A DNA stretch of 48,611 bases from Phycisphaerales bacterium. GTDB lineage: Bacteria > Planctomycetota > Phycisphaerae > Tepidisphaerales > Tepidisphaeraceae. The position numbers and the translations under genes were made by a program. Below are positions 24,326 through 29,856 of the stretch, piece after piece. Where the stretch lies: the NCBI GenBank assembly GCA_020853095.1, contig JADYZN010000070.1, positions 1-48,611 of the forward strand, read 5' to 3'. Within the stretch, counting starts at the first letter, position 1. Each line of letters starts with the position of its first letter. The notes beneath the pieces are model-generated. The model was not told the origin of the DNA. It did no database searches and saw nothing but the letters and a program-made list of their open reading frames with translations.

Positions 24326-24349
24326 AACCCGCGCAAAGCGCTACGGGTT
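24326..24349. terminator. Hairpin between convergent genes
   Basis: AACCCG (24326-24331) pairs with CGGGTT (24344-24349), with an inner GCGC/GCGC stem. It overlaps the stop of the amidohydrolase gene. There is no T-run, so its terminator role is uncertain. Confidence 0.35.
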
Positions 24350-25234
24350 GGATTTGATTGGCACCAGCCGCTGGGCATTCTGGAAATAGATTTTATCCTG
24401 AACGGCTTTGGAGAGGTCGAGCGTTTTGAGGAAGGCCCAGAGATCCTGGCCGTAGAAGTCGCGGGCGAAAAGAAGCCGGTCGGCGTAACGGGTGAGGAAT
24501 TGTTGGGCGTGACCGGGATCGCGCTTGAGGGCGTTGAGGGCGGAACCGGCCGACAGGTCGGCGTACAGGTTGGGATGGCGATCAAACAGGCCATGCAGGC
24601 GGCCACCGGGGGTCAGGGGGCCGGATGGGTAGGCGGAAGGTTCGGTGCGGGCATCGCCGCTGATTTCGCGCCAGAATCCGGGGGCGTGTCCGATGAAGAT
24701 GGTGTCGGGGCAGGCGTCGAGGGCGCGTTCGAGGTTGTCGATGGTTCCGCCAAACCAGAAATTCTGGTAGGCCATTTCGCCCCGCTCATTCATCAGGTAC
24801 GGCACATCCAGATGCAGGACGACCGGGCTTCGGAGCGAGCCGGCGACGCGGAACACTTCCAGGCAACGGGGATCGTCAAACAACATGCGGAATTTCCATT
24901 CGCCGCAAACCCGCGCGCCGTGGATTCGATGGGCGGATTCAAACAATTTGGGCGCCGAGGGCAATGCGGGATTGGGGCAATAACCCAGGATGAATCGGTC
25001 GGGATGGCGGTTGCGGGCCTGCACCAGATCGGCAAGCGGAATGCCGGGGTGGGTTCCATCGGGACGGATGTGGATGGGGTTGAGCAGGCCGTGATATGGC
25101 GGGTTGTCTTCATTGGGGGCGATTTCCCATGAAAGCAGCCATGCCAGTGAAATCTGATGGTCGTCCATGTCGGCGATCAAACCGACATCATCCTTGCCAT
25201 GCCAGAAAACGTGTTGGTGGGTGTCGATGATCAT
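24341..25234 (-). CDS. Amidohydrolase-family metal-dependent hydrolase
   Basis: 297 residues of the amidohydrolase (PF04909-type) TIM-barrel family. The N-terminal metal motif is IIDTHQHVFW (HxH), further ligands are likely in VLHLDVP and FIGHAPGFW, and the final Asp in LLFARDFYGQD. The family hydrolyses or decarboxylates ring or lactone compounds (for example L-rhamnono- or fucono-lactonase-like reactions). ATG 25234 fits the family N-terminus; an upstream in-frame ATG would add 23 unrelated residues. A promoter at 25247-25275 would produce a leader of only a few bases. It is divergent from the isomerase gene and may act on sugars released by the hydrolase. Confidence 0.85.
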   Translation of the reverse strand: MIIDTHQHVFWHGKDDVGLIADMDDHQISLAWLLSWEIAPNEDNPPYHGLLNPIHIRPDGTHPGIPLADLVQARNRHPDRFILGYCPNPALPSAPKLFESAHRIHGARVCGEWKFRMLFDDPRCLEVFRVAGSLRSPVVLHLDVPYLMNERGEMAYQNFWFGGTIDNLERALDACPDTIFIGHAPGFWREISGDARTEPSAYPSGPLTPGGRLHGLFDRHPNLYADLSAGSALNALKRDPGHAQQFLTRYADRLLFARDFYGQDLWAFLKTLDLSKAVQDKIYFQNAQRLVPIKSNP

Positions 25235-25246
25235 ATTGAGGCGAAG

Positions 25247-25275
25247 ATCATCGCATTGAAAGCAGCAATTGACAA
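25247..25275 (-). promoter_or_regulatory. Promoter of the amidohydrolase gene (near-leaderless)
   Basis: On the minus strand TTGTCA (25275-25270), a 17-bp spacer and GATGAT (25252-25247) end 12 nt before ATG 25234, so the mRNA should start about 5 nt ahead of the start codon. Confidence 0.6.
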
Positions 25276-25282
25276 CAAAGGC

Positions 25283-25311
25283 TTGGAGACGAAGGGAAGG
25301 CATCTTACAAT
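25283..25311 (+). promoter_or_regulatory. Promoter of the isomerase-RnfCD unit
   Basis: TTGGAG (25283-25288), a 17-bp spacer and TACAAT (25306-25311) lie about 97 nt upstream of ATG 25408 and back to back with the divergent amidohydrolase promoter. Confidence 0.55.
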
Positions 25312-26268: not shown

Positions 26269-27393
26269 ATGAAACGATACCGGCTGCGAATGTCGGGCGG
26301 CCGCATCGGGGAGGAGCGCCACGGCCCGCCGCCCGTATTTGAGGGCATCGCACCCGCAAAACATCAAATGCCTCGTGCATCGGGGATCGCCTGTCCATGG
26401 CCGGCCCCTTCGACACGGGTGCTGGTCGGATGGGTGGATCGGCTGACGGGCGGAGGATTGGGCGCGGATCGGCACGACTGTCCGAACATCCTGGGCCAGT
26501 TGCACCAGTTGCTGACCCGTCCGGTGGACACGGTGTTGTGTTCGCTGATGGATGAGTCGCCGGAAGTGTCGTTGAACGCGGCACTGGCGCACCATTATCC
26601 GGCGGAACTGCTGGCCGGGGTTTGGTTGATGGGGGAACTGACCGGCGCGGCGAATCGGTGGATCGTGGCCGAGGGGGGAACGCGATCCCGATGGCTGGGA
26701 GAGATACGCGAAGGGGCCGCACAATTGCGGTTGAGGTTGATCTGGCTGCGTAACGATTATCCCCAATCGGAAGCGACCGTTCTTCTTTATACGTTATTGA
26801 ACCGGAAATTGCGGCCGAGGCGGCTGCCGACCGAACAGGGCGTGTTGTTGCTGGATGCGGCGGCGGCGGTTGATATCGGGCGAATCGCCTTGTGCGATGA
26901 GCCGGTGACCCTGAGGCCGATGGTTTTCCGGGACCATTCGGCCGGCATCTCGCGGTTTGTTCACGTGCCGGCGGGAATGAAACTGTCCGATGCGATGGCG
27001 GCGGCGAGCCTGAACGCGCATGGGAAGGAATTGCGGGGTGGAAATCTGCTGCGTGATGTGCCAATCGACGCGGAGGCAACGGCGGGATCGGGCGAGCTGG
27101 TGATCCATGCGTACCTGCGCGAACCGATGCGATCGCCCGATTCGTGCATCCGCTGCGGGTGGTGCGTGGAAGGATGTCCGACGCGGATCAACCCCGCGGG
27201 TTTGCTGGAGGCGGCGCAGCGGCGAAACCTGGACCTGGCGGATCATTACGGGCTGGATTCGTGCATTGAATGCGGCATCTGCACGTATGTCTGCCCATCG
27301 CATTTGCCCTTGCTGGAGGGGATTCGACAGTTGCAAAAGCAATCGGACCGGGCAATGAAACAAATGGCCGGCGGATCGGAAAGCACCGGATAA
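26269..27393 (+). CDS. rnfC: RnfC-like iron-sulfur protein, short form
   Basis: 374 residues. The C-terminal third is a ferredoxin domain with two 4Fe-4S motifs, CIRCGWCVEGCP and CIECGICTYVCP, as in RnfC. The middle matches the SLBB/RnfC core (YPQSEATVLLYTLLNRKLRP, LPTEQGVLLLDAAAAVDIGR, EPVTLRPMVF). The N-terminal part is short, and I cannot find the glycine-rich loop that binds FMN and NADH in canonical RnfC. Rnf couples ferredoxin or NADH oxidation to ion pumping across the membrane. Only rnfD follows; rnfA, B, E and G are absent here. The gene overlaps rnfD (TAATG), so they are co-translated. Confidence 0.85.
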   Translation: MKRYRLRMSGGRIGEERHGPPPVFEGIAPAKHQMPRASGIACPWPAPSTRVLVGWVDRLTGGGLGADRHDCPNILGQLHQLLTRPVDTVLCSLMDESPEVSLNAALAHHYPAELLAGVWLMGELTGAANRWIVAEGGTRSRWLGEIREGAAQLRLRLIWLRNDYPQSEATVLLYTLLNRKLRPRRLPTEQGVLLLDAAAAVDIGRIALCDEPVTLRPMVFRDHSAGISRFVHVPAGMKLSDAMAAASLNAHGKELRGGNLLRDVPIDAEATAGSGELVIHAYLREPMRSPDSCIRCGWCVEGCPTRINPAGLLEAAQRRNLDLADHYGLDSCIECGICTYVCPSHLPLLEGIRQLQKQSDRAMKQMAGGSESTG

Positions 27394-28634
27394 TGGACCA
27401 GCAACCCGTGCATACGGACGAATTTTCAAATGGCAATGGAGAGTTGCCGGTGCGGCCGCATTATGTGACGCCCGCCATGTCGAATGCGATACCGACGCTC
27501 CGGCACAGCGGCATGACCATCGGGCGGTTTTTCTGGATGCACGTGCTGGGAGGTGCGTTTCCGGTGGTGGCGGGGTTGATGTTGTTCGGATGGAGGGCGC
27601 TGGGGGTGATCGCGGCGGTGATGGGGACGGCGGCGCTGATGCACCCGCTGTGGCGCCGGATCGGGCCGCATGGCCGGCAGATGCGCTGGTCGCATACGTT
27701 GTGGCTGGCGTTGTTGTTGTCGTTGATGCTGCCGGCGCACCTTTTGAGCGGGGTGGTGGAGGGGGAGTCGAACGTGGCCCTGTGGCCGATGTTGCCGGCG
27801 GCGGGGATCGTGCTGGTGTGGTTCACCTGGCTGCTGGGAGGGGTGGGATCCAGCCGGGTTCATCCGGTAATTTTGACGTATCTGCTGATGGTGGTGTTGT
27901 TTGGACCGTTGCTGGTGCCGCATACGGTGTTGCGGTTTGGCCGGGTGTTTTTGGGGGATGTGAACGATGCGGCCAGAACCGAACAGGTGGTGGCGAAGGA
28001 TCCGTGGAAGCAGACGCGGCCCGCCGATGGGCGTGATGCGATGTGGCGGGAGCCGGCATCGCAGCGGCTGGTCTTTTTCACCAGCGGGCTTCATCCGGCC
28101 TGGATGTCGCTGGAGGGGATGTTGAGGGATCGAATCCCGCCGCTGGAGGATTTGATCATCGCCGGACAACCGGCGCCGATCGGATGCGCCAGCAACGTCG
28201 CGGTGATCGTCGGCGGGTTGTTTTTGCTGTACCGGGGATTGATTGATTTTCGCATCCCGTTGTTGATCTGCCTGGTGGCGTATGGCGCGCTGCTGGTGCT
28301 GCCGATTCCGGTGGTGATCTCCGAAGGAGGCGCGCAATGGCTCTGGCTGGCGGGGCGACAACAGGGCGTGGGGTGGCCGCTGGCGTTGACGTTCGTCAAT
28401 TATGAAATGATGGCGGGGCCGGCGCTGTTCATGGCGTTTTTCCTGGCGACCGCGCCGGCGGTCCGGCCCATGTCGCGTCGGGGAAGGGTTGTTTTTGCGA
28501 TTCTGGTCGGCATCCTGACGGCGGCGATGCAGTTGTATGCCTCGGTGTCGTTCGGGCCTTATCTGGCACTGTTGCTGGTGAGTTTGCTGACGCCGGCATT
28601 GGATCGATTTTTCAGGCCCAGGGCATTGATATAA
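27393..28634 (+). CDS. rnfD: RnfD-like membrane protein without flavinylation motif
   Basis: 413 residues with about ten membrane segments. It matches the RnfD/NqrB family in SSRVHPVILTYLLMVVLFGPL and APIGCASNVAVIVGGLFLLYRGLIDFRIPL, the IG-x-x-S segment near the quinone/flavin site. Canonical RnfD carries a covalent FMN on Thr in an S-G-A-T motif in the loop after the first half; no such motif occurs in residues 184-240 here. The N-terminal 40 residues are cytoplasmic. It is translationally coupled to the RnfC-like gene. Together they look like a minimal electron-transfer module; whether it pumps ions is unknown. Confidence 0.82.
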   Translation: MDQQPVHTDEFSNGNGELPVRPHYVTPAMSNAIPTLRHSGMTIGRFFWMHVLGGAFPVVAGLMLFGWRALGVIAAVMGTAALMHPLWRRIGPHGRQMRWSHTLWLALLLSLMLPAHLLSGVVEGESNVALWPMLPAAGIVLVWFTWLLGGVGSSRVHPVILTYLLMVVLFGPLLVPHTVLRFGRVFLGDVNDAARTEQVVAKDPWKQTRPADGRDAMWREPASQRLVFFTSGLHPAWMSLEGMLRDRIPPLEDLIIAGQPAPIGCASNVAVIVGGLFLLYRGLIDFRIPLLICLVAYGALLVLPIPVVISEGGAQWLWLAGRQQGVGWPLALTFVNYEMMAGPALFMAFFLATAPAVRPMSRRGRVVFAILVGILTAAMQLYASVSFGPYLALLLVSLLTPALDRFFRPRALI

Positions 28635-28649
28635 AGAATCCGGCTTGGC

Positions 28650-28677
28650 TTGTCGCGGGATGGCCGGCCGATATAGT
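28650..28677 (+). promoter_or_regulatory. dxr promoter, predicting a near-leaderless mRNA
   Basis: TTGTCG (28650-28655), a 16-bp spacer and TATAGT (28672-28677) end 9 nt before the TTG start at 28687, so transcription should start within 2-3 nt of the start codon. Confidence 0.65.
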
Positions 28678-28686
28678 GAGCGAGCT

Positions 28687-29856
28687 TTGAGCAAACGAAT
28701 AGCCATTTTGGGATCCACCGGATCGATCGGGACCAACGCCCTGGAGGTGATCGAACACCTTGGGCCTTCCTATCGCGTGACCGCGCTCAGTGCCCACAGT
28801 CAGTGTGATAAGCTGTTGGAGCAGGTTCAGCGCTATCAGCCGGCGGCGGTGACGGTGACGGAAGATGAAGCCTGTCAGCGCGCGATACAAGGACTGAAAG
28901 GAACAGGAGTTAAGGTTTACAAGGGATCGTCCGGGCTGGTGGACATGGTTCGGCGCGGGGATGTGGATGTGGTGCTGGCGGCGATCGTGGGGGCGGCCGG
29001 GTTGCCGGCAGTGTTCGCGGCGGTGGAGGCGGGCAAAGGCTTGGCCTTGGCGAACAAGGAAGCGCTGGTGGTGGCCGGATCGGTGTTGATTCCGATGGCC
29101 CGTGATCGGCGGGTGCCGATTTTGCCGGTGGATTCGGAACATTCCGCGATTTTTCAGGCCATGCAATGCGGGCGGCGAAATGAAATCCGCCGGGCGATCC
29201 TGACGGCCAGCGGCGGGCCGTTTCGCAATGCGCCAGTCGAGAAGATTCAAAATGCCACGCTGGAAGATGCGCTCAACCACCCCACCTGGCGGATGGGCAA
29301 CAAGATCACGATCGATTCGGCGACGATGTTCAACAAGGCGCTGGAACTGATCGAGGCGTGCTGGTTGTTTGATCTGCCGCCAAACCAGGTGGACATCGTG
29401 ATTCATCCGGAATCGGTGGTTCATTCGATGGTGGAATTTATTGATGGGTCGGTGATGGCCCACCTGTCGCCGCCGGATATGCGGACGCCGATCCAGTATG
29501 CCCTGACCTATCCGGAACGGGCCGACGGGATCAGTCGTCGGCTGGATTTGAAACAGGCTTTTTCGCTTAATTTTCAGCCGCCGGACGTTGAGCGATTTCC
29601 CGCACTTCGGCTGGCGTATGATGTGGCGAACAGGGGCGGCACGCTGGGAGCGGTGTTGAACGCGGCCAACGAAGCGGCTGTGGCGGCTTTTACGTCCGGA
29701 AAAATTCGATTTGGCGAGATTTCCCGCATGGTCGAGCTTACAATTGGTGAACACAAGGTTCAGTCGGCCCCCGGACTGGACGATCTTCTGGAAGCGGATC
29801 GCTGGGCCAGGGAAACGGCCAATCGAAGGATCGAAGACACTCTGATTCGGAATTAA
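28687..29856 (+). CDS. dxr: 1-deoxy-D-xylulose-5-phosphate reductoisomerase
   Basis: 389 residues with the complete DXR signature. The NADPH motif is AILGSTGSIG, and the metal and substrate residues lie in PVDSEHSAIFQ and ASGGPFRN, followed by HPTWRMGNKITIDSATMFNKALELIEACWLF and NAANEAAVAAF. It converts DXP to MEP, the committed step of the non-mevalonate isoprenoid pathway, in the cytoplasm. TTG 28687 is preferred: the family begins with KRIAILGSTGS, and the promoter at 28650-28677 lies downstream of the longer in-frame starts. It is followed 3 bp later by rseP, a pairing seen in many bacteria. Confidence 0.96.
   Translation: MSKRIAILGSTGSIGTNALEVIEHLGPSYRVTALSAHSQCDKLLEQVQRYQPAAVTVTEDEACQRAIQGLKGTGVKVYKGSSGLVDMVRRGDVDVVLAAIVGAAGLPAVFAAVEAGKGLALANKEALVVAGSVLIPMARDRRVPILPVDSEHSAIFQAMQCGRRNEIRRAILTASGGPFRNAPVEKIQNATLEDALNHPTWRMGNKITIDSATMFNKALELIEACWLFDLPPNQVDIVIHPESVVHSMVEFIDGSVMAHLSPPDMRTPIQYALTYPERADGISRRLDLKQAFSLNFQPPDVERFPALRLAYDVANRGGTLGAVLNAANEAAVAAFTSGKIRFGEISRMVELTIGEHKVQSAPGLDDLLEADRWARETANRRIEDTLIRN

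Follow-up and report, generated by a model that had tools for sequence, protein, structure and literature searches.

The window, by which we mean the whole 48,611-nt stretch of Phycisphaerales DNA that was analysed, carries on its forward strand a gene for an RnfC-like protein (positions 26269-27393, a 374-aa ORF) and directly behind it a gene for an RnfD-like membrane protein of Pfam family PF03116 (27393-28634, a 413-aa ORF with 10 predicted transmembrane (TM) helices). Stop and start codons of the two genes overlap in a TAATG at 27391-27395 of the same strand, as the original prediction had read this junction. The RnfC-like product is a soluble iron-sulfur protein that lacks the NADH/FMN loops, and RnfB was not seen next to the pair in the window.

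Upstream, and separated from the RnfC gene by 36 nt, lies a TIM-barrel sugar isomerase/epimerase-like gene (PF01261; 25372-26232, forward strand, start uncertain) that has conserved H/E/D residues and is linked to RnfC in Tepidisphaeraceae. Downstream on this strand, dxr (1-deoxy-D-xylulose-5-phosphate reductoisomerase; 28645-29856, forward strand, start about 28690) and rseP follow closely. The originally proposed transcript shared with the isomerase-like gene would fit the 36-nt gap, but dxr and rseP are closely spaced on this strand as well; dxr is probably not part of the RnfC-RnfD module. Divergent from the TIM-barrel gene, an amidohydrolase-like gene (PF04909) occupies 24341-25303 on the reverse strand and is kept in a genus-mate (L025).

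Cluster motifs and flavin sites of the two proteins

The best NCBIfam match of the RnfC-like protein was rnfC (TIGR01945; E 9e-31), far below the cut-off of that model, and RsxC was also among the best matches. Two CxxCxxCxxxCP motifs for 4Fe-4S clusters are present, CIRCGWCVEGCP at residues 293-304 (27145-27180, forward strand) and CIECGICTYVCP at residues 332-343 (27262-27297, forward strand), and all eight cluster cysteines are invariant in an alignment of 12 family members, which bears out the claim that both motifs are kept. The loss of the NADH/FMN loop was likewise confirmed: the G-x-G-G-A-x-F-P loop was found in none of 30 orphan relatives versus 28 of 28 canonical planctomycete RnfC proteins, and no intact NADH loop turned up. 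An N-x-x-E-C-E-P type motif (the E-C-E-P loop) was found in 6 of the 30 orphans, the window protein not among them, versus 28/28 canonical proteins, and GGPMMG in 0/30 versus 27/28. A partial ETEPYLT-like motif is kept in families f103, f108, f107 and f116 and is missing in the family of the window.

AlphaFold models of RnfD and RnfC were built from family alignments (pLDDT 81 and 85). The RnfC model matched Azotobacter vinelandii RnfC with a Z score of 30.2 over 344 residues (3.5 Å), NuoF and NqrA being next in structure at Z about 19-20. The RnfD model matched A. vinelandii RnfD at Z 34.8 over 311 residues (2.6 Å), and the next best matches, at Z 12-14, were to AmtB and to urea channels. In profile searches the RnfD-like protein scored 104 bits with PF03116 and 59 bits (E 4e-16) with its best NCBIfam match, rnfD (TIGR01946), again far below the cut-off; a Pfam search of the protein gave PF03116 alone, without a fused PF00175 NAD domain. 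The RnfD/NqrB fold with ten predicted helices agrees with the earlier statement that the membrane core is retained. Judged by profiles and models together, both proteins are divergent but genuine relatives of RnfC and RnfD.

The S-G-A-T motif, whose absence from RnfD had been pointed out, proved overly strict because most canonical planctomycete RnfD proteins read D-x-x-T-x-A-T/S at this site, for example DAVTRATPL or EAVTQATPL. A strict pattern recovered this broader flavinylation motif in 26 of 30 canonical proteins, and inspection by eye raised the count to all 30, since the remaining four read EAVTQATPL- or GAVTRATPL-like at the equivalent position. The motif was not found in the loop of any of 39 orphan RnfD proteins, nor was an intact flavinylation Thr, so that the absence claimed for the window extends to the broader motif. 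In the window, the stretch of the periplasmic TM5-TM6 loop beside the expected motif site lies at 28098-28130 (forward strand). The same loop carries W205 in 38/39 and P249 in 37/39 orphans, at positions that are gapped or differently occupied in canonical proteins.

The riboflavin ligands of Vibrio cholerae NqrB are T162, N200, N203 and D346 (PMC10643135). Each of them is conserved in 30 of 30 canonical proteins, and in the aligned window protein all four are replaced: T162 by L105 (27693-27707 on the forward strand, a stretch that also encodes H101, canonically Ser), N200 and N203 by S154 and H157 (27852-27863, forward strand), and D346 by A354 (28452-28454, forward strand). At the N203 position none of the 39 orphans has Asn, 28 have His and 6 have Gln; N200 is likewise replaced in the orphans. 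Counted along the alignment, N203 and D346 correspond to N123 and D249 of Acetobacterium woodii, where the mutations N123A and D249A abolish activity (PMC11889175). The loss of the riboflavin site is graded and most complete in families f1, f5 and f104, because other families retain part of it: T162 is kept in f108, f116 and half of f103, and D/E346 in f103, f108, f110, f3, f116 and f107.

Conservation of the pair and of its neighbours

The window genome (3.6 Mb, 96% complete) was searched with the families of the other subunits, and control genomes gave matches in each of these searches. No matches were obtained genome-wide for RnfA/E and NqrD/E (PF02508), for the FMN_bind proteins RnfG/NqrC (PF04205) or for the ApbE flavin transferase (PF02424), and PF03116 matched the window RnfD copy alone. 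The absence of rnfA, rnfE and rnfG first noted for the flanking DNA therefore extends to the whole genome, in which none of NqrC, NqrD, NqrE, RnfA, RnfE and RnfG was found; on the zero matches to PF02508 and PF04205 we reject the possibility that RnfA/E and RnfG are hidden elsewhere in it.

The named relatives of this genome are Tepidisphaeraceae and Phycisphaerales MAGs. RnfD orthologues occur in 22 of the 26 genomes of the order. Of 397 genomes sampled across Phycisphaerae, 110 carry orphan-type RnfD (counted by hand at E up to about 1e-24), and RnfA/E is absent from 74 of these 110; in families f1, f103, f104 and f5, RnfA/E was found in none of the orphan-bearing genomes. The two-gene pair is conserved well beyond the window: of 20 loci sampled from nine other families, 18 carried it, and in most sampled loci of the ten families RnfC and RnfD are adjacent on one strand. 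The orphan RnfD proteins of all ten families share one side of a branch that separates them from canonical RnfD with a support of 100/100, in a tree whose rooting is not established. Among 392 sampled Planctomycetota, the orphan profile gave near full-length matches (>90 bits) in Phycisphaerae only. Divergent RnfD-like proteins also occur in other planctomycete classes (families f54 and f86; L157 1351-2646 and L158 222-1568); their short flanks contained no RnfC, and the flavin motifs looked for were absent from them.

Between the window and a genus-mate, dN/dS (NG86) was about 0.21 for RnfC and about 0.22 for RnfD, compared with 0.10-0.14 for dxr, rseP and the TIM-barrel gene. By this measure both genes are constrained by purifying selection and evolve faster than housekeeping genes.

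Within Tepidisphaeraceae, RnfC adjoins RnfD in 13 genomes, and both are present but apart in four more (G023, G005, G004 and G018). Where the two genes are separated, a genome often still retains both, as in these four and in G631 and G712. In G021, RnfC is present and RnfD was not found. Conversely, RnfC was not found in G008 (94% complete), G015, G007 and G022, all of which have RnfD, nor in G014, where RnfD lies at a contig edge; neither gene was found in G003, G002 and G006. Several of the assemblies without RnfC are incomplete. In two loci the pair is unusual. At L043 9636-11633 (G017), RnfC and RnfD seemingly lie in one frame with a single TAG between them, possibly through readthrough, fusion or a sequencing error, and at L039 8317-10452 (G019) each gene is in two pieces and one break shows an ambiguous residue, so that an assembly error is probable.

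Of the 18 RnfC loci in the family, about 15 have the TIM-barrel gene upstream of RnfC, and in four of these RnfC and RnfD are apart. The TIM-barrel gene stands beside RnfD in three genomes without RnfC (L037, L038 and L042); in the other families sampled it is not linked to the pair. Four to five family loci have dxr after RnfD (the window, L025, L038 and L043, with a distance of about 1.9 kb in L029), and one has ispH. This ispH (LytB, PF02401; L030 10521-11468) follows the orphan RnfD at a distance of 44 bp in the complete G005 genome, at the place that dxr has in the window and its relatives. Neighbours in other families are unrelated (acetate kinase, ScpB, dihydroorotate dehydrogenase, sulfatase), and no donor or acceptor gene conserved across families was found beside the pair.

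A candidate two-subunit redox module and its rivals

The pair shares with the Rnf complex (RnfABCDGE, ferredoxin:NAD+ oxidoreductase) the RnfC and RnfD folds, the C-D gene order and two 4Fe-4S motifs. It differs in that its genome lacks RnfA, RnfE, RnfG and ApbE and in that the two proteins lack the covalent FMN motif, the riboflavin ligands and the RnfC NADH/FMN loops. In Na+-NQR, NqrB shares the RnfD fold and NqrA is a relative of RnfC that also has no FMN/NADH site; NqrA, however, has lost the iron-sulfur clusters whose motifs the window RnfC keeps, and NqrC, NqrD and NqrE are missing from the window genome. Of the systems described, the two-subunit NQR/RNF-like one comes closest. It too is partial and is built on an NqrB/RnfD-like membrane protein without the flavinylation Thr, but it has an NqrC/RnfG-like flavoprotein partner and a fused PF00175 NAD domain and is found mostly in Actinobacteria and CPR (PMC8238504, PMC10979944). 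The RnfC-RnfD combination differs from it in having no flavoprotein subunit and, as partner of the membrane protein, an RnfC that carries two 4Fe-4S motifs. We found no description of such a pair in Phycisphaerae in the open-access papers searched.

Our tentative preference is for a non-pumping membrane redox module of two subunits. The window pair has lost the NADH, FMN and riboflavin sites and yet keeps both RnfC 4Fe-4S motifs, a pattern that suggests electrons moving singly between a carrier in the cytosol and a membrane-side acceptor other than that of Rnf. Beyond the observed folds, losses and conservation, we infer the following electron flow, with its donor and acceptor. RnfC would dock under RnfD as in Rnf, and a soluble cytosolic one-electron carrier would give electrons to, or take them from, the RnfC clusters; because the hydride site is gone, this carrier would most likely be ferredoxin-like. 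Electrons would run through both [4Fe-4S] clusters and on to a remodelled site in RnfD, and RnfD would link them to a partner on the membrane side. The likeliest partner would be a quinone or some other cofactor in the old riboflavin pocket, in which His or Gln takes the place of Asn203. RnfC and RnfD can be regarded as direct redox neighbours because the RnfD riboflavin of the Rnf complex gives its electrons to the proximal RnfC cluster without an intermediate (PMC12174285). Since the switching subunits are missing, the module would not be expected to pump Na+ or H+.

Because T162, N200, N203 and D346 are all replaced and the A. woodii mutants at the positions of N203 and D346 are inactive (PMC11889175), RnfD may hold no redox cofactor at all. 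It is also conceivable, although unlikely, that its pocket has been rebuilt around His (H157, often with H101) to hold a different cofactor such as heme b, or a bound quinone, fed by the RnfC clusters. The pair would then be a flavin-free transmembrane redox device, and the NqrB/RnfD fold would host a kind of electron-transfer chemistry new to it. Because four, possibly five, genomes keep RnfD without a detectable RnfC, RnfD must act alone or with another partner there. The original prediction of a stripped-down membrane electron-transfer unit therefore holds for its structural part, a stand-alone pair without RnfA/E/G, but its electron-transfer part can be put only conditionally because the riboflavin ligands are gone and RnfC was not detected in those four to five genomes.

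The main rival, which we consider rather improbable, takes RnfD as a non-redox membrane anchor or channel-like scaffold and RnfC as a tethered iron-sulfur sensor or as a donor to a soluble enzyme. Every canonical flavin ligand is changed in the window RnfD, its fold is of the ammonium/urea channel type, as the second-best structural matches indicate, and the His residues at 101 and 157 of the former riboflavin pocket may recall the His-lined Amt pore. The sequence identity to these channels is about 7-14%, and by family the protein groups with RnfD. Against this rival, several other families keep part of the riboflavin site (T162 and D/E346 in f108 and f116, D346 in f103 and f110), and ten conserved helices are not obviously needed by a pure anchor. 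A further reading appears doubtful. It sees in RnfC and RnfD the conserved half of a larger assembly, with further subunits that are non-homologous to RnfA/E/G and encoded elsewhere in the genome. The conserved periplasmic TM5-TM6 loop of the orphans could dock a new partner, but the families share no gene beside the pair, and within the own family only the TIM-barrel gene and, at some loci, dxr recur.

The positions of dxr and ispH are a weak lead towards isoprenoid synthesis, and the pair might feed electrons to the iron-sulfur enzymes IspG and IspH of the MEP pathway. Since dxr is adjacent in none of the nine other families sampled, the link may reflect inherited gene position only, and we give this function very little credence. 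Even harder to sustain is the idea that the pair is left over from a lost Rnf operon and is decaying, which the loss of key cofactor sites and the failure to find RnfC in some genomes might suggest; decay was rejected on the basis of dN/dS values of about 0.2 for both genes and of their conservation, with orthologues in most genomes of the order, eight invariant cysteines and a deep branch that spans ten families.

Models of Rnf and Na+-NQR describe pumps of six subunits in which flavins are essential. As far as can be read from the genomes, a group of Phycisphaerae keeps RnfC and RnfD under selection without RnfA/E/G, and neither protein has the residues known to bind flavin or NADH. That a bacterial class keeps C and D in this form suggests that the RnfC-RnfD half may live independently. 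The pair is a caution against annotating an 'Rnf complex' from single subunits, and it provides a natural test of the role of RnfD without flavins.
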